64,000 bases of DNA from contig CANQLR010000010.1 of assembly GCA_947624745.1 (NCBI GenBank), positions 1-64,000 of the forward strand. Reading direction: 5' to 3'. This DNA is from an uncultured Clostridia bacterium (GTDB lineage Bacteria > Bacillota > Clostridia > Oscillospirales > Ruminococcaceae). The position numbers and the translations under genes were made by a program. The notes beneath the pieces were generated by a model that did no database searches, was not told the DNA's origin, and saw only the letters and a list, made by a program, of their open reading frames with translations. This document shows, piece after piece, positions 3,433 to 52,477 of this stretch (the stretch's first letter is position 1; each line of letters begins with the position of its first letter).

Positions 3433-4929
3433 TTAGTCATTTCCCGCGGTCGGCATTGCGCTGTAGCCGTTCGCGATGAACTCGTCGACCTTGTTGTTGA
3501 GCTCGCCGATCTCATATTCGAGCGAATCGCCGAGGCTTTCCTTGAGCTGCGCCCAGGTCTGCGCGCCGGCAGCCGAGGTGGAGTGCGCGTTATCGTCGAA
3601 CTGAAGCACGCGAATGCCGATAGCCGAGCCGTAGCCGGCTTCCGCGTCGACGCCGTAGGTCAGGATAACGTTGTCGATACCCGAGTTGGCGAGCCTGTAG
3701 CACTCGTCGTACATTTCGAGCATCTCATCGGTCCAGAGGTAGGTGTGCTCGAGCTGATAGCGGTCGATACCCACAACGGTAGGATCGAGGACCTTGAAGC
3801 GGTCGCACATGGCAAGAAGCACCGCGGTGTCGTGATGAACGCCGCCCGCGATAAGGGCATAGCCGGTCGACTTGATGTCCTGATAGTAAACGCCGTCGCC
3901 GTTCGGGTCGCGAGGCATCGGGACGAACATCAGCTCGTTCGCCTCAACGTCGCCCCAGACCGCCGAGATGGTCTCGACAGGGCCGGTGAAGCCCCAGGAG
4001 CCTATCGGCTGGAAGAGGCACTGGCCTTCCTTCATACCGCCGCCGTCAACGCCGTTGCGGAGGGACCACCCGTTCCACCAAGGATAAACGACCTCGGCCT
4101 TGTTCAGATCGTAGAGGACCTGAGCGGCTCTTTCAAGCCTCGGGTCGTCGATGTTCGATACGAACTTGCCGGTCTCGGTGTCATATCCGATGGTGGGCAC
4201 GCCGGAGGAGTGCATGATCGCGCGGCCGAAGTACCAGCCGTCGAGGGCATAGCGGTCCTCGTTCTGGTCGGTGAAGTCCATGCACATGTCGCTGAAGACG
4301 TCCCAAGTCCACTCGTCGTTGGCGTAAAGCTCGGCGGGATCGTCGAAGCCCCACTCCTGGATAACTCTGCGGTTATACGGGCAGACGAGGTCGAAGGTCA
4401 TGTCGGTAAGTACGAAGTAGGTCTTGTCGCCGATGGAGAAATACTTCTCGGCGTAGTCCTTCATATCCGCCCACAGCGGGTCGGAGAAGTCGATATAATC
4501 GTTCACGGGGACTATCATGCCCTTTAAGGCCTTCATCGGGAAGAGCTCGGTGGAAGCGGGCGTGAAGTCGGGCGAGGTGCCTGCCAGAACAAGGTTGGCA
4601 AGCTGAGTGTAGCGCTCTTCCCAGGACGGGAACTCGATCCACTCGGTCTCGCAGCCGTATCTCTCGGTAAAGGTGAAGAAGCCGGTGTTTACGACCTCAT
4701 CCTCTCTGTAGTTGTGGAAATCCCAGTTAGAATACCATGTGGCGACCTGTCCCGCACCGGCGGCCGTTTCGGCGTCGGGGAGATATACGCCCGCGGCGTT
4801 CAGTATGGCTTCCGCGTCCTCGGTGGAAAGGGTGAGCTTAATGGGCTCTCTCCTGCTTCCGCCGCAGCCGACGAGCGCTATTACCAAAAGCGCGGCAAGC
4901 GTCAGAGCCAGAATTTTTTTGATTTTCAT
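3433..4929 (-). CDS. Orphan extracellular solute-binding lipoprotein (sugar ABC type), paralogue 1
   Basis: 498 residues starting at MKIKKILALTLAALL (GGAGGT 7 bases upstream). The signal peptide ends in the lipobox IALVGC, with Cys22 lipidated. The body resembles family 1 extracellular solute-binding proteins of sugar ABC importers: an early YNRRVIQEWGFDDPAELYA segment, WTWDVF, and a C-terminal segment with many Asp and Trp. A clear paralogue lies at 51.0-52.5 kb and shares long blocks (for example YNRR, EWGFDDPAELYANDEWTWDVF and TLSTED.EAILNAAGV). No permease or ATPase gene lies next to either copy, so the importer partner must be elsewhere or absent. Substrate unknown. Confidence 0.8.
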   Translation of the reverse strand: MKIKKILALTLAALLVIALVGCGGSRREPIKLTLSTEDAEAILNAAGVYLPDAETAAGAGQVATWYSNWDFHNYREDEVVNTGFFTFTERYGCETEWIEFPSWEERYTQLANLVLAGTSPDFTPASTELFPMKALKGMIVPVNDYIDFSDPLWADMKDYAEKYFSIGDKTYFVLTDMTFDLVCPYNRRVIQEWGFDDPAELYANDEWTWDVFSDMCMDFTDQNEDRYALDGWYFGRAIMHSSGVPTIGYDTETGKFVSNIDDPRLERAAQVLYDLNKAEVVYPWWNGWSLRNGVDGGGMKEGQCLFQPIGSWGFTGPVETISAVWGDVEANELMFVPMPRDPNGDGVYYQDIKSTGYALIAGGVHHDTAVLLAMCDRFKVLDPTVVGIDRYQLEHTYLWTDEMLEMYDECYRLANSGIDNVILTYGVDAEAGYGSAIGIRVLQFDDNAHSTSAAGAQTWAQLKESLGDSLEYEIGELNNKVDEFIANGYSAMPTAGND

Positions 4930-4979
4930 AGTTGACCTCCATTTCATTGCGCCTCAAGTGCGCAAAAAGTTACATATAG

Positions 4980-7631: not shown

Positions 7632-7850
7632 TTACCGGTAGAGAGATAAATTGAAAAGGTTTCGCCGGCCTTTCCTCAAAAGGCCGCGGGGTCGAGGGGC
7701 AGCGCCCCTCGTCGCCCGTCGCAACGGGCGAAATCCCCTACGCGTTAGCGAGCGCAGGACGGGGAGAAAAAATCTGTCCGGTGGACAGTTTTTTCGTGGG
7801 GAGACCCTCGCCGGGGGTCTCCCCGTTTGCCGAGCGATGAGCGAGGCAAA
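7632..7850 (+). repeat. Dispersed GC-rich repeat, copy C
   Basis: The block begins GAGAGATAAATTGAAAAGG and contains the hairpin CGCCCGTCGCAACGGGCG, then GGGGAGACCC...GGGTCTCCCC, ending in the 25-bp TTTGCC box at 7826. It is strongly similar to 13129-13393 (same strand) and 44379-44594 (opposite strand). Reading frames through it are products of the repeat and are not called as genes. Confidence 0.8.
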
Positions 7851-8024
7851 GAGAAGAATGAGGTTACATCTAAGGTAGACGGTTGCGCACAAAGCGGGGT
7901 GTTCGCTCCCTATTTGCCGAGCGATGAGCGAGGCAAAGAAAAGGCGGAGCTTAGCAGATAATGCAGATGATGCGCTGTGGGTGGGGCGGCGGCTCCTTAT
8001 TTGCCGAGCGATGAGCGAGGCAAA
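7826..8024 (+). repeat. Array of three 25-bp TTTGCC...GGCAAA boxes at an 87-bp period
   Basis: Identical 25-bp boxes (TTTGCC GAGCGATGAGCGA GGCAAA, with 6-bp inverted ends around a direct repeat of GAGCGA) lie at 7826-7850, 7913-7937 and 8000-8024. They are separated by two intervals of exactly 62 bases. The intervals share sequence at their ends (gAaaAgg...; ...ctcctta), so this is a tandem duplication rather than a CRISPR array. The same box occurs at 13369 and twice at 44293-44403 at an 86-bp period. Confidence 0.85.
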
Positions 8025-8075: not shown

Positions 8076-8170
8076 GGGGCGAAGCCCCGAGGCGGCAGCT
8101 CTGCTGCCGCCGTGCCCGACCCGCTTGCGGGTCGGGCGGTGCGCACGGAGTGCGCACACGGGGCTTCGCC
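8076..8170 (+). repeat. Triple-hairpin module 1
   Basis: GGGGCGAAGCCCC is followed by three adjacent perfect hairpins: GGCGGCAGC/GCTGCCGCC (8091-8111), GCCCGACCCGC/GCGGGTCGGGC (8114-8137) and GTGCGCAC/GTGCGCAC (8139-8157). GGGGCTTCGCC closes the module and CTGCACTTTGCTGCGGTG follows. Same plan as the modules at 8280, 8608 and 13447, with different stem sequences. Confidence 0.85.
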
Positions 8171-8279
8171 GCGCAGGGTCTGCACTTTGCTGCGGTGAAT
8201 CAGAAAAGTGCAAGTCAGCACATACAAGGAGAGGCACAAAGCTTGTGCCCCTCTGCAAACTGCGGTAGAGGCACCGACC

Positions 8280-8376
8280 GGGGCGAAGCCCCATGCGCGG
8301 AGCTTCGCTCCGCGCGGCCGGGAGGCTCCGCCTCCCGGCACGCCGGCCACGAAGTGGCCGGCGGGGGCTTCGCCCC
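8280..8376 (+). repeat. Triple-hairpin module 2
   Basis: GGGGCGAAGCCCC, then hairpins GCGCGGAGC/GCTCCGCGC (8295-8315, loop TTC), GCCGGGAGGC/GCCTCCCGGC (8317-8339, loop TCC) and GCCGGCCAC/GTGGCCGGC (8342-8362, loop GAA), then GGGGCTTCGCCCC. Module architecture is conserved while stems differ from the other copies. It is followed by a reverse-orientation degenerate TTTGCC-type box near 8430-8452. Confidence 0.85.
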
Positions 8377-8607
8377 TATCCCCCTGCGTTTTAGCCGAGT
8401 TCGATATTGCCCCAACCGGGCTGCATAAGGTATTCGCTTCGCTCATGCTATTTTAAGCCCCCTCCCCTGCCCCTCCCCGACGGGGAGGGAGCGCAACGGC
8501 CTATCGACATCTGACTCGTACCTTAGTTCCCGTTGCGCAGCGAACCCGCCGGAGCGGCGGCTTCGCCCTCACCCTGCCTCACCGCAGCAAAGTGCAAAAC
8601 CCGCACC

Positions 8608-8702
8608 GGGCGAAGCCCGTGTCGGCAGCTTCGCTGCCGACACGCCGCCCGAGCCGAGCTCGGGCGGCGAGCGCGCACTCCGTGCGCGCCCGGGCTTCGC
8701 CC
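8608..8702 (+). repeat. Triple-hairpin module 3 (inverted orientation)
   Basis: GGGCGAAGCCC, then hairpins GTGTCGGCAGC/GCTGCCGACAC (8619-8643), GCCGCCCGAGC/GCTCGGGCGGC (8644-8668) and GCGCGCAC/GTGCGCGC (8671-8689), then GGGCTTCGCCCC. The conserved flank CACCGCAGCAAAGTGCA lies on the left side, the reverse complement of the right flank of module 1, so this copy is inverted. It ends about 145 bases before the htrA start codon. Confidence 0.85.
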
Positions 8703-8847
8703 CACCCCTCCCTTTTCGCAACTAAATCTCCAAAAATTCCGCTTTCTTTCATACAGTTTTCACATCGGTGGGGTAATATTTAAAGCAATAAGACCAATGC
8801 GGTTCATGACAGATATCACGCAGTTTACGAGCTTGGAGGTAAACACA

Positions 8848-12900: not shown

Positions 12901-12923
12901 TATAAACGCGTTGAAAAAGGCTT

Positions 12924-13393
12924 CCCATATATACCGAAAAAACGGGCATTTGTTGCACGGAAATGTGCAACTTTTTTGAAAAAATTTTTTAAATCCTTCT
13001 CGGAGTACAAATGTACGGACTATAAAGGAGGTTAAGAAACAAAAAATTGGGGGGATTTTTGTGGAAGGTGACGAAAAGTCTAAGCGTGTTAGAGGCAGGC
13101 AAAATAGTTTAACCGGCTAATTTTATGAGAGACAAGCCGAAAAGGTTTCGCCGGCCTTTCCTCAAAAGGCCGCAGGATTCCAAAGGGCAGAGCCCTTTGG
13201 TCGCCCGTCGCAACGGGCGAAATCCCCTTTCCAAAAATATCGCAGGAGGGTAGCCAAACAGTCCGACCCCGGGCGAAGCCGCCGCTCCGGCGGGTTCGCT
13301 GCGCAACGGGTGCTAAGGTACGAGTCAGAAGTCGATTGGGCGTTGCGTTCTCGACGGGAGTCTCCCCGTTTGCCGAGCGGAGAGTGAGGCAAA
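12924..13393 (+). repeat. Long composite repeat, copy A
   Basis: AT-rich block 12924-13136: it starts CCCATATATACCGAAAAAACG, contains GTTGCACggaaatGTGCAAC and GGAGTACAAATGTACGG, and ends AAAATAGTTTAACCGGCTAATTTTATGAGAGACAAG. It is followed by the GC-rich block with CGCCCGTCGCAACGGGCG, up to a TTTGCC box at 13369-13393. Nearly the same sequence lies inverted at 44379-44795. Translating the matching frame gives the same peptide as copy B, but copy A has two in-frame stops, so it is not called as a gene. Confidence 0.85.
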
Positions 13394-13446
13394 CTCTGCT
13401 CTCGACCGGGGTTTAGCAGAAAGTTTGGGAGTTATGCCATGGTCGT

Positions 13447-13541
13447 GGGCGAAGCCCCGAGGCGGCAGCGGAGCTGCCGCCGTAAAGGCCGCGCGGAGCG
13501 CGGCCTTTGGCGCCCACGGAGTGGGTGCCCGGGGCTTCGCC
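13447..13541 (+). repeat. Triple-hairpin module 4
   Basis: GGGCGAAGCCCC, then hairpins GGCGGCAGC/GCTGCCGCC (13461-13481), AAAGGCCGCGC/GCGCGGCCTTT (13484-13508) and GGCGCCCAC/GTGGGTGCC (13509-13529), all with GGA loops, then GGGGCTTCGCC and CTGTACTTTGCTGCGGTG. Same orientation as module 1. Confidence 0.85.
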
Positions 13542-13709
13542 ACGCAGAGTCTGTACTTTGCTGCGGTGGGGCAGCACGGTGTGGGGCGCACCCCGGGCTT
13601 CGCCCCGCCCCCAGCGCCCCCGCTGCCAACCCGTTATCCCCTGTCTTCTCCCCGCCCCCCTCCTTAGACCGCGCCCCCAAAAAATATTATTATTTTTTCA
13701 AATTCCCTC

Positions 13710-18972: not shown

Positions 18973-18990
18973 CAAAATATTTCATATGCT

Positions 18991-19204
18991 TGGAACGGAA
19001 GAGTAGCCTTTTTTCGGGACTTCAGAGAGAACGCGGCCGGTGAAAGCGTTCGCCCAAAAACGGCGAAGGACATCCGCGAGCATCCGGGTGACAAAGCCCG
19101 GACGTCCCCCCGCGTTAAGGGGAAATGAGAGGCCGCTTCGGCGGCAACTAAGGTGGCAACACGGCCGAGCGTCGTCCTTATTTTCGGGGACGGCGCTTTT
19201 TAAT
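18991..19204 (+). promoter_or_regulatory. T-box leader of hisS-aspS, probable Asp specifier
   Basis: Classic T-box elements in order: GAAGAGTAGCC, CAGAGAG...GGTGAAAGCG (19023-19048), a specifier region, the antiterminator T-box AAGGTGGCAACACGG (19150-19164) and an intrinsic terminator (GCGTCGTCC...GGGACGGCGC with T5, about 19169-19202). Aligning the specifier loop with the tryptophan T-box of this window, whose UGG at 37441 is unambiguous, places GAC (Asp) at 19069-19071. The leader would sense uncharged tRNA-Asp. The specifier call is an inference. Confidence 0.88.
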
Positions 19205-34650: not shown

Positions 34651-34860
34651 ATCATCGCCGAAGGCGATACCTCGCAAATCTGACCTATGACTTCTGTCTT
34701 CTGGCGCACAATCGGGGCCCCAAAAACGCCTGCGTTTTGGGGAAGAGGAGGAGCAGCGGAATGAGTGAGCCCCGACGCTCGCGGAGGGGCGAGGGATATG
34801 AAGCTTGCGACGACGAGGGCGACACCTTATAGTTCTGACCTCTGACCTCTGTTATCTGCC
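34651..34860 (-). repeat. Purine-rich / GGTGTCGCC repeat, inverted copies
   Basis: On the minus strand this stretch reads CAGAGGTCAGAGGTCAGAACTATAAGGTGTCGCC near its right end, and AGAAGACAGAAGTCATAGGTCAGA followed by ATCGCCTTCGGCGAT near its left end. Both parallel the element at 12816-12900. No gene is evident. Confidence 0.6.
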
Positions 34861-34867
34861 GTCTCCC

Positions 34868-35032
34868 GGGGCGAAGCCCCCAACGTTCGCGGAGCGAACG
34901 TTGTCTGCCGCGCCCCAAGGCTAAGCGGGACGGCTTTTAAAAGGCAGAAAGCGAAGGCGCAGCACAAATCTTGAAATTACCGCTGCGCGGCGGGAAGCGC
35001 GCCGTTCGCGGCGCGCTTAGGGCTTCGCCCCT
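34868..35032 (+). repeat. Single-hairpin forms of the GGGGCGAAGCCCC module
   Basis: GGGGCGAAGCCCC followed by CAACGTTCGC-gga-GCGAACGTTG (34881-34903), then, 90 bases on, AAGCGCGCCG-ttcg-CGGCGCGCTT (34995-35018) and GGGCTTCGCCCC. Reduced version of the triple-hairpin modules, ending at the stop of the lipoprotein gene. Confidence 0.7.
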
Positions 35033-44292: not shown

Positions 44293-44403
44293 TTTGCCTC
44301 GCTCATCGCTCGGCAAATGCGGATTGTAGCTCCGGCTCTGTGCGCAACCGTTTACCTTTGATATAGCCCCACCTTTTCTTTGCCTCGCTCATCGCTCGGC
44401 AAA
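44293..44403 (-). repeat. Pair of TTTGCC...GGCAAA boxes
   Basis: Inverted copies of the 25-bp box at 44293-44317 and 44379-44403, an 86-bp period. The interval contains, on the minus strand, GGTAAACGGTTGCGCACAGAGC, matching the first interval of the 7826-8024 array (GGTAGACGGTTGCGCACAAAGC). Confidence 0.85.
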
Positions 44404-44795
44404 CGGGGAGACCCCCGGCGAGGGTCTCCCCACGTCGCAACAGCCCACCGGGCTGATTGCTCCTCCCCGTCCTGCGCCCGCTTACGCTTGGGGATTTCGC
44501 CCGTTGCGACGGGCGACCAGAGGCTCCTCGCCTCTGGACTCTCGCCCGCTTTTTGAGGAAAAGCGGGATAAAACCTTTTCGTCTTGTCTCTCATAAAATT
44601 AGCCGGCTAAACTATTTTGCCCGCCTCTAACATGCTTTGACTTTTCGTCATTTTCCACAAAAATCCCCTCAAATTTTTGTCCCTTAACCCCCTTAACAGT
44701 CCGTACATTTGTACTCCGGGAGCATTTTCAAAAAAATTTTTCAAAATGTTGCACATCACCGTGCAACTTTTCCCCGTTTTTTCGGTATATATGGG
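44404..44795 (-). repeat. Long composite repeat, copy B (inverted relative to copy A)
   Basis: Reverse complement of the 12924-13370 element: AT-rich block 44582-44795 with CCCATATATACCGAAAAAACGG, GTTGCAC/GTGCAAC, GGAGTACAAATGTACGG and TTTTATGAGAGACAAG, then the GC-rich block with the CGCCCGTCGCAACGGGCG hairpin. On the minus strand the AT-rich block is open (ending ...KSQSMLEAGKIV), while copy A has two stops in that frame. No gene is called. Confidence 0.85.
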
Positions 44796-44828
44796 AGGAC
44801 AATTTCTTCGACGTCGAATTTCCACCCC

Positions 44829-51025: not shown

Positions 51026-52477
51026 TTACCCGCCGTTTGCCGTGATATAATCGTCGATCTCCTTATTCTGCTCCTCGAGGTAATACTCGAAGCTGTCGGC
51101 GAAGTTCTCCTTGAGCTGCGCCCAGGTGGTGGTGGCGCCGCCGCGGGCGATGTCGTCGCGGAAGTGGTTATACGCGGTGTTGAGGTTGTCGATGAAGTTG
51201 CCGTTCAGATACATATAGGTGTTCTTGAGGATTATCCTGCGGCACTCGTCGTACATTTCGAGCATCTCGTCGGTCCAGAGATATTTCTCCTGGAGCTGTC
51301 TGCGGTCGATTCTCTCGACGGTCGGGTCGATGAGCTTGAACCGCTCGCAGGCCGAGAACAGAGCCACGCCCTCGGGGTTATCCGAGCCCTGGACGAGCAT
51401 ATATCCCGAAGGAATGGAGGCCAGATAATACTCGCCGTCGCCCTTGTCGTTTCTCGGCAGCGGGACGTACATCAGCTCGCCGCTGGTGACGTCGCCCCAG
51501 ACCGCGGAGATCTCGTCGACAGGTCCCTGGATCGAGGTGAAGTAGGTTATGTAGAAGAGGCAGAGGCCGTCCTTAACGCCGGCGCCGTCGGTGTGGTTGT
51601 CTCTTCCGGCCCAGTAGGAGGTGCCCTCGTGGTATACGCACTCGTTCTTTACGAGGTCGTAGATGAGCTGGTTGGCCTGCTCCAGAACGGGGTCGTCAAG
51701 GTTAGAGGTATAGTGGCCGTCCTCGTCCTTATCGACGAACTTGTGGCCCGAAGCCTCCTGAACGAGAGCTCCGTTATAGGCATAGCCGTCGAGCGCGAAG
51801 CGGTTTGCCTCGGCGTCCGAAAACTCGACGCACATGTCGTAGAAGACGTCCCACGTCCACTCGTCGTTGGCGTAAAGCTCGGCGGGGTCGTCAAATCCCC
51901 ACTCGTTTATAACTCTGCGGTTGTAGGGGCAGATGTTTCTGAAGGTGACGTCGGTGATGAACGCGAAGCACTTTCCCGCGAGGGTGAACGCCTCGGCAGG
52001 CTCGGCCATGCCGTCCCAAAGGGGATCGGTATAGTCGATATAAGCGTCGACGGGGGCGAAGGTGCCCTTAACGCAGTACATCGGGAAGGTCGCCTCTGAG
52101 GAAACGCCCGCGGGGAAGAAGTCGGGCGAGGTCGCGGCCATGATGAGGTTCGCGAGCTCGTCGTATCTCGTGTCGTAGGTGCACTCGTAGAACTCGACGG
52201 TGCTGTTGTACTTCTCGCGGAAGGTCCAGTAGCCGGTGTTTACGATCTGATCCTCGCTGTAGTTGTTGATGGGGTCGTACCAGGAGAAGAAGGTGATGGT
52301 GGAATTAGCCGCACTCGTCTCGCTGATGTCGGGGAGCCTTACTCCGGCCGCGTTGAGTATCGCCTCGGAGTCCTCGGTCGACAGGGTGAGAATGATGGGC
52401 TGACGCTTTTTGCCGCCGCAGCCGACCAGAGCGACCACAAGCACCAAAGCAAGCGCAAGCGCTAAGATTCTTTTCAT
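51026..52477 (-). CDS. Orphan extracellular solute-binding lipoprotein, paralogue 2
   Basis: 483 residues (MKRILALALALVLVVALVGC; lipobox Cys20). It is the paralogue of the protein at 3433-4929, sharing TLSTED.EAILNAAGV near the N-terminus, the YNRRVINEWGFDDPAELYA core, WTWDVF and the FKL.DPTV.RIDR...YLWTDEMLEMYDEC region. Typical of family 1 solute-binding proteins of sugar ABC importers, yet no permease or ATPase gene is close. It lies beside a GH2 glycosidase, suggesting a carbohydrate ligand. A TATAAT lies upstream on the minus strand. Confidence 0.82.
   Translation of the reverse strand: MKRILALALALVLVVALVGCGGKKRQPIILTLSTEDSEAILNAAGVRLPDISETSAANSTITFFSWYDPINNYSEDQIVNTGYWTFREKYNSTVEFYECTYDTRYDELANLIMAATSPDFFPAGVSSEATFPMYCVKGTFAPVDAYIDYTDPLWDGMAEPAEAFTLAGKCFAFITDVTFRNICPYNRRVINEWGFDDPAELYANDEWTWDVFYDMCVEFSDAEANRFALDGYAYNGALVQEASGHKFVDKDEDGHYTSNLDDPVLEQANQLIYDLVKNECVYHEGTSYWAGRDNHTDGAGVKDGLCLFYITYFTSIQGPVDEISAVWGDVTSGELMYVPLPRNDKGDGEYYLASIPSGYMLVQGSDNPEGVALFSACERFKLIDPTVERIDRRQLQEKYLWTDEMLEMYDECRRIILKNTYMYLNGNFIDNLNTAYNHFRDDIARGGATTTWAQLKENFADSFEYYLEEQNKEIDDYITANGG

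Follow-up and report, generated by a model that had tools for sequence, protein, structure and literature searches.

Interspersed non-coding DNA elements of ∼75–100 nt, each able to fold into a four-armed cross, occur in about half of the sampled members of the genus to which this DNA belongs. The best explanation of the observations as a whole, which we consider about as probable as all others together (roughly 0.5), is that of a DNA-level cross that is rewritten by recopying and from some copies of which the host has come to benefit. The elements came to attention through an earlier note on the window (the whole stretch of DNA analysed, 64,000 nucleotides), which had described four modules with three consecutive hairpins each; all four were found (Table 1). 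The triple-hairpin observation holds and extends beyond the version of the note, which as a whole is partly confirmed.

Four-armed crosses in the window and in the genome

In each of the four modules, a left box is followed by three hairpins and a right box. The boxes, GGGGCGAAGCCCC and GGGGCTTCGCC, are inverse complements and pair with each other as an outer stem, so that each module is a four-way cross consisting of an outer stem and three hairpins. The hairpin arms, initially described as perfect over 8–11 bp, are perfect over 8–12 bp, except for one G.T pair in the third hairpin of the element at 13446. The flank motif TTTGCTGCGGTG (at most one mismatch), thought to accompany every module, was present at three of them (at module 3 inverted and on the left side) and absent near module 2; the motif is one component of a larger composite repeat.

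Table 1. Crosses, flank motifs and a class B relative in the window (., strand unassigned; hairpins given as stem followed by loop in brackets)
Feature	Position	Strand	Remarks
Cross element 1	8076..8172	+	Outer arms 8076–8088 and 8160–8172; hairpins GGCGGCAGC(TCT), GCCCGACCCG(CTTG), GTGCGCAC(GGA)
Flank motif TTTGCTGCGGTG	8186..8197	+	Within the ∼108-nt spacer repeat that separates elements
Cross element 2	8280..8376	.	Without close flank motif; hairpins on + strand GCGCGGAGC(TTC), GCCGGGAGGC(TCC), CGCCGGCCAC(GAA)
Inverted flank motif CACCGCAGCAAA	8580..8591	-	Adjoins element 3 on its left side
Cross element 3	8607..8703	-	Hairpins of 10–12, 12 and 8 bp
Cross element 4	13446..13543	+	Upstream of mreB; one G.T mismatch in hairpin 3
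Flank motif TTTGCTGCGGTG	13557..13568	+	Adjoins element 4
Class B relative	34868..35031	+	Outer arms as in class A; one hairpin on each side of an AT-rich middle arm; 164 nt

Folded as single-stranded DNA (+ strand), all four modules gave the cross, with z-scores of the fold energy between −9.8 and −11.9; folded as RNA, their energies ranged from −84 to −94 kcal/mol. A descriptor free of sequence (an outer stem of at least 8 pairs in which one mismatch is tolerated, three hairpins of at least 6 pairs in which none is, loops of 3–6, gaps of at most 4) recovered three of the four modules in the window and nothing in five dinucleotide shuffles; the element at 13446 was missed because of its hairpin mismatch. 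When the window was searched against Rfam at the gathering score, no family matched the cross, the sole match being a T-box leader (RF00230) at 18982–19182. The window also contains two related long open reading frames on the − strand (3433–4947 and 51026–52477), probably paralogues, with segments that are 71–75% identical.

The motif GGGGCGAAGCCC occurs 281 times in the organism's own genome (2.57 Mb in 100 contigs) and its reversed control twice. In the window, together with 35 stretches surrounding BLAST matches, 96 arm-bounded elements were counted, 65 of which belong to class A, the cross (76–99 nt), the other 31 being 153–164 nt long and nearly all of class B. Parsing succeeded for 63 of the 65 class A elements; 162 of their 189 hairpins are perfect, and only 29 of 1,758 pairs are not Watson-Crick. 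By their flank, 36 of the 65 could be oriented. For 49 copies (alignment A1; unoriented, unparsed and short ones omitted), RNAalifold returned the outer stem together with the three hairpins, and 21 of 29 pairs showed changes on both sides. Pairing was kept in 93.6% of the cells of A1, compared with 74.5% after shuffling and 35.6–43.0% after sliding, and the covariation score was 0.457, compared with 0.135 for shuffled alignments; none of 500 shuffles reached the observed value, which is not to be read as a probability because the copies are related. The claim that stem sequences vary between copies while complementarity is kept was thus borne out, and the covariation statistics that the earlier note had proposed revealed a real signal, orthologous sites (see below) included. 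The outer arms pair in 99.3% of the cells, so that the elements end in terminal inverted repeats as MITEs do, and they sit within larger composite repeats with a common spacer. Like REP sequences, they are high-copy extragenic palindromes: 0 of 95 and 0 of 19 crosses had their midpoint inside a predicted gene, as called by a simple codon-usage script. The stretches of the own genome contained 49 crosses in 378 kb, a density that is biased because the stretches were picked near arms.

Occurrence in relatives and at two orthologous sites

The earlier note had suggested a covariance-model search and had made its case depend on further copies in related genomes. Such copies exist: model R1, though biased to one arm sequence in the genus search, matched 14 of 31 genus genomes (E ≤ 1e-4). 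In the own genome, 132 of the 133 candidates scored were matches, some of them both strands of one place. Using the descriptor, 43 crosses were found in 399 kb of a sister species (G018); G010 yielded 12 (400 kb), G017 3 (200 kb) and G020 4 (190 kb), and shuffled sequence none. The same scan gave no cross in G025, which belongs to the genus but is not matched by R1 (245 kb), nor in G034 (60 kb), G043 (120 kb), Escherichia coli K-12 (100 kb) or the mreB loci L192–L216 (73 kb); these loci come mostly from more distant relatives, although at least L197 and L207 look genus-like. Outside the genus, the exact arm pattern was absent from all 390 other genomes of the class that were sampled. Among 245 genomes of the order, R1 matched the own genome and one of the same family (E 1.8e-6), whose locus L101 contains no cross according to the descriptor; since scoring was limited to 16 candidates in each genome, weak or re-armed crosses could escape this search. 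Stems and some outer arms differ between species (e.g. GGGCAAATCCCC with GGGGATTTGCCC in G016), and L073, L075 and L077 are cross-like by eye, yet fail the descriptor. All genus genomes are draft assemblies, the identified relatives being mostly MAGs from one rabbit project. The nearest named relatives by mreB, in a listing that may omit the own genome, were uncultured Clostridia MAGs from rabbit gut, followed by Ruminococcus-labelled and Oscillospiraceae MAGs. As at window position 13446, a cross lies upstream of mreB in G004 (L181:754–842); none was found with the relaxed descriptor at the remaining mreB loci of relatives. A cross of G020 (L287:10542–10636) with the outer stem GGGCCCCTTTT and AAAAGGGGCCC lies in a convergent gap and may double as a two-way terminator. 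SbcD was considered as an excluding factor and rejected: it scored above the cut-off in 8 of the 14 cross-bearing genomes and in 3 of the remaining 17 of the genus, so genomes with SbcD can carry crosses too.

Two gene boundaries allowed crosses to be compared between species. A search for the response regulator next to phoU matched 11 of 31 genomes (E ≤ 1e-60), and six species (G000, G004, G010, G018, G022 and G028) have a cross between the two genes. As judged by eye, phoU directly adjoins the regulator without a cross in the more distant G008 and G026, and the regulator gene has another neighbour in G016 and G023; G003 was left unresolved. Among the six species, the stems showed a mean pairwise difference of 0.006 (1 of 54 sites variable) and the outer arms one of 0.030 (2 of 25), compared with 0.252 in the loops (5 of 9), 0.178 at the junction bases (1 of 3), and 0.087 and 0.095 in the two intergenic flanks (9 of 39 and 16 of 74). 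Differences at third codon positions amounted to 0.18–0.20, those at first and second positions to 0.02–0.03. The stems are significantly less variable than the flanking intergenic sequence (1/54 versus 25/113; Fisher p 4e-4), and the first loop is inverted (GAA/TTC) in one of the six species. Selection on structure, which the earlier note had implied for the modules in general, is therefore supported at least at phoU, where the stems are held while the flanks diverge. The orthologous analysis covers two sites, and stem constraint was seen at this one.

At the second site, which was located by a malic enzyme search (18 of 31 genomes matched), a kinase-like gene lies downstream of the malic enzyme gene in 12 species (by eye), in nine with and in three without a cross in between. 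Eight of the nine crosses were recovered by the relaxed descriptor (arms of at least 5); the ninth, in G016, has a long middle loop and was therefore identified by eye. Apart from these nine, G018 has a cross that is interrupted by the contig end. The gap is short and free of a cross in G000, G007 and G028, and in G012, G013, G023, G008 and G021 no cross follows the malic enzyme gene and the subsequent sequence differs. G003, G005 and G011 have most stems in common, with changed loops, and G016 has two of these in part; the remaining stems are strongly diverged. Anchored at the loops, stem identity was 0.62–0.79 among G003, G005 and G011 and averaged 0.53 (0.23–0.75) for the other 33 pairs, compared with 0.41 (5–95% range, 0.26–0.59) for random pairs of crosses from different species. 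The notion that the stems at this site are unrelated was therefore dropped: because 0.53 exceeds the random value, some ancestry is retained. A CCCGCGC-like middle arm recurs among the crosses, and in G020 the outer stem (∼20 bp) is entirely different. The stems may have come to differ stepwise by double changes, through template switching, or through conversion by other copies. Together, this suggests that related species keep a cross at the same gene boundary despite sequence turnover, shape being preserved more than sequence.

Loops, strand and competing explanations

The loops are far from random. In G018, 113 of 113 triloops are GNA or TNC, all closed by C-G; the corresponding numbers for G000 are 107 and 118 of 123, and in 27 crosses from 13 other species 56 of 67 triloops are GNA or TNC, compared with 10 of 50 in background triloop hairpins of three control genomes. 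Most of the other loops are tetraloops, CTTG or CAAG above all in G000. A TNC loop is a GNA loop read on the opposite strand, and GNA loops on G-C stems correspond to the superstable DNA mini-hairpin C(GNA)G, as described in the accessible part of PMC4686876. On the sense strand of 59 crosses lying between co-directional genes, 64 loops are GNA, 74 TNC and 39 other, i.e. without overall strand bias; single species lean in opposite directions (GNA/TNC 29/43 in G018, 27/16 in G000 and 6/12 in G010), and the malic enzyme site has 10 of each (by eye). Among 36 unique crosses of G018, 21 have three GNA or TNC loops, 15 of them mixed and 6 with all on the same strand, which is the random ratio; for G000 the numbers are 10 and 9, with 67 of 86 unique crosses unscorable. 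In the main family of G018, the loops of the side hairpins are inherited and flipping is not free. A 12:12 count of GNA and TNC, once taken as evidence of free flipping, was withdrawn, since much of it reflects the orientation of the element.

Inversions were nevertheless seen within elements. Of 18 flank-oriented copies with a CTTG or CAAG middle loop (L025:1511, a false motif match, excluded), three have the whole hairpin block reversed relative to the flank and one has only the middle loop reversed (by eye). Copies with two stem cores in common mostly differ by at least three pairs in the third (43 of 44 comparable pairs in G018, 118 of 178 in G000; the pairs are not independent). Template switching, according to the accessible text of PMC8794818, keeps stems paired and rarely inverts loops. 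The origin of the stems by local inversion or slippage, which the earlier note had named as an argument against itself, is probably part of the truth because loops and inner blocks invert; the conserved phoU stems speak against it as the whole. On a larger scale, where G000 has a gap of 9 nt, G018 has ∼1.26 kb containing three crosses, the insert being composite with undefined ends, so that arrays appear to be gained or lost as composites. Loop type as a predictor of mismatches failed: imperfect hairpins make up 17 of 126 with GNA or TNC loops, 6 of 32 with CTTG or CAAG and 4 of 31 others, and non-GNA hairpins are thus not less perfect, contrary to a corollary of template switching.

Whether the structure is selected in RNA or as cruciform DNA had been left undecided by the earlier note. 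DNA-level structure is favoured because loop type is without overall strand bias and loops invert; in addition, wobble pairs are not in excess on the sense strand (G.T 2, A.C 2). A weak hint in the other direction comes from copies oriented by flank or middle loop, in which G.T mismatches outnumber A.C (12 versus 4). On balance, the structure seems either to be important at the level of DNA or to originate there. In the favoured explanation, either strand would fold into the four-armed cross, with hairpins mostly tipped by C(GNA)G on either of the two strands, and the structure would act as DNA, i.e. as an extruded cruciform or as a hairpin at the replication fork. One arm may occasionally be recopied from the other during replication, by template switching at the stable hairpin turn, or else a whole arm may be replaced from another copy; the same recopying would also invert loops and inner blocks. 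Copies would spread as parts of larger composite intergenic repeats, and some would have become useful to the host and then been held by purifying selection, as at phoU. Selection on some copies is part of the explanation because template switching does not account for the slow phoU stems. Going further, the crosses might constitute a class of chromosomal site whose shape is conserved more strongly than its sequence (a four-way DNA cross that stays at one gene boundary across species, with arms, including the outer ones, that can be rewritten and C(GNA)G tips on either strand), serving as target of a host junction protein or as a topological or replication signal; this proposal is tentative and, for now, rather doubtful.

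A structured RNA, transcribed and acting in the mRNA by stabilizing it or insulating cistrons from each other, would explain compensatory change as selection on an RNA helix. It would fit the orthologous crosses between co-directional genes at both sites, phoU stems that are constrained while loops vary, the strong predicted RNA fold of the window modules and the G.T excess in oriented copies. Co-directional gaps are also somewhat over-represented in G018 (27 of 36 crosses, above their share of intergenic bases, versus 5 divergent and 4 convergent); in G000, 22 co-directional, 15 divergent and 11 convergent gaps roughly follow intergenic length. We nonetheless consider this explanation unlikely: crosses occur in all three types of gap, no Rfam family matched them in the window, and the strand-consistent loops and sense-strand wobble by which an RNA element would be recognized were not found, the G.T excess in oriented copies being the observation that runs counter. 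A purely mutational origin, in which template switching and recombination create and maintain palindromes and no copy is functional, would account for the inversions of loops and blocks and for whole-hairpin differences between copies by a mechanism that has been published (PMC8794818 and PMC8604942, as far as accessible). It is hard to reconcile with phoU stems conserved beyond their flanks, with C(GNA)G loops that prevail while their middle base and the stems vary, and with a three-hairpin layout kept across species at the malic enzyme site, and is thus distinctly unlikely.

High copy number, intergenic location, inverted arms, the ∼1.26-kb array that a sister species has in place of a 9-nt gap, and a Y1 remnant in the own genome would be expected of a REP/REPIN-like or MITE-like mobile element, moved by Y1/RAYT or another transposase. 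The REP-associated tyrosine transposase that the earlier note had proposed as a partner was rejected, however. The own-genome Y1 match is a broken remnant, 8 of the 14 cross-bearing genomes have no Y1_Tnp match at E ≤ 0.001, and full-length uninterrupted matches are restricted to G004, G017 and G018. Ten Y1 loci examined (of 19 matches) contain other hairpins and no cross. The tetranucleotides GTAG or CGTC, which beside a palindrome mark REPs (PMC3733652, accessible part), lie within 12 nt, on either strand, of only 9 of 114 crosses. The Y1 version of this explanation is thereby partly refuted, and mobility of this kind is quite improbable. Y1 transposase genes at L093, L094, L096 and L100 in sister species, which we take to be IS200-like, are adjoined by CCCCCGGCNNNGCCGGGGG hairpins. 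Intrinsic transcription terminators, as GC-rich intergenic hairpins might suggest, were rejected and have next to no probability, since 0 of 114 crosses are followed by at least six T in the next 10 nt on either strand and 20 of 84 scorable crosses of G018 and G000 lie in divergent gaps.

Known repeat families and other repeats of the genome

The crosses resemble REP, BIME and REPIN sequences in being intergenic, high-copy, palindromic and clustered. REPIN hairpins also show compensatory changes, and a “clover” fold is mentioned (PMC3116915, accessible part). REPINs, however, have ends strongly conserved in sequence and an adjacent RAYT, whereas the crosses have three hairpins plus an outer stem, arms and stems that diverge between species, and no RAYT. 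Because a Y1 link is lacking and REP tags are rare, we place the crosses among bacterial interspersed palindromic repeats but outside REP/REPIN. Repeats of the ERIC, NEMIS and RU type are defined by conserved sequence. These MITE-type repeats are likewise short and intergenic (PMC2759123, in part), whereas the crosses keep their shape with little sequence, and neither a parent transposase (Y1_Tnp search) nor a target duplication was found. Mitochondrial double-hairpin elements of fungi and sponges are similarly dispersed, lineage-specific and structurally divergent, but organellar, and the accessible parts of the sources describe single, double or “more elaborate” forms and no fixed four-armed layout (PMC2800124; PMC5910586). 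The stem-loop families of Cozzuto et al (2008) share a common predicted structure and are mostly intergenic; unlike the crosses, they were found by sequence clustering, in 40 genomes, and are compared here by their description in the accessible text only (PMC2267715). The four-armed layout is not described in the accessible parts of the literature searched, which lay mostly outside subscription papers; in the portion of PMC13155455 at hand, the words cloverleaf, four-way and Clostridia are absent.

Compensatory stem change normally counts as a sign that an RNA is functional; its occurrence here together with strand-indifferent, inverting loops is a warning for covariation pipelines that call new RNAs. 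Because loop type ignores the transcribed strand and loops invert, the crosses are a natural test case for RNA selection versus DNA arm copying. Crosses at the same site with different stems would allow the rewriting rate of DNA palindromes to be measured, and orthologous crosses would show whether a bacterial chromosome can select the shape of a junction.

The supposed single-hairpin forms at 34868–35032 turned out to be a second class (B) with outer arms as in class A, two side hairpins, and a middle arm with ∼80 AT-rich bases. Class B elements (153–164 nt) were also seen at L012, L017, L029, L043 and other loci, with few side-stem alleles and recurrent TTTTAAAAGGCAG-like stretches in the middle arm. 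Alignment A2 comprises 28 of the 31 long elements; L027:1786 was omitted because of its poor alignment, and L016:932 and L024:1411 because of their opposite orientation. Another repeat (class C, ∼110 nt, with GACGACGAG ends) was found inside hairpin loops of two class A crosses (L019:983–1180 and L041:1083–1269) and seems to target palindrome loops; class C-like sequence is present at ∼34715–34820 of the window. A 25-nt imperfect palindrome, TTTGCCGAGCGATGAGCGAGGCAAA, occurs in the window at 7826–7850, 7913–7937, 8000–8024, 13369–13393, 44293–44317 and 44379–44403, forming arrays with 86–87-nt spacing within larger composite repeats. Long intergenic repeats, inverted and 85–87% complementary, link distant gene gaps (12913–13148 with 44571–44806, 236 nt; 7736–7856 with 44373–44493, 121 nt). 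Lastly, L029:3303–3350 is a solo long palindrome in which the outer arms enclose just one class B hairpin and which looks like a snap-back duplication.
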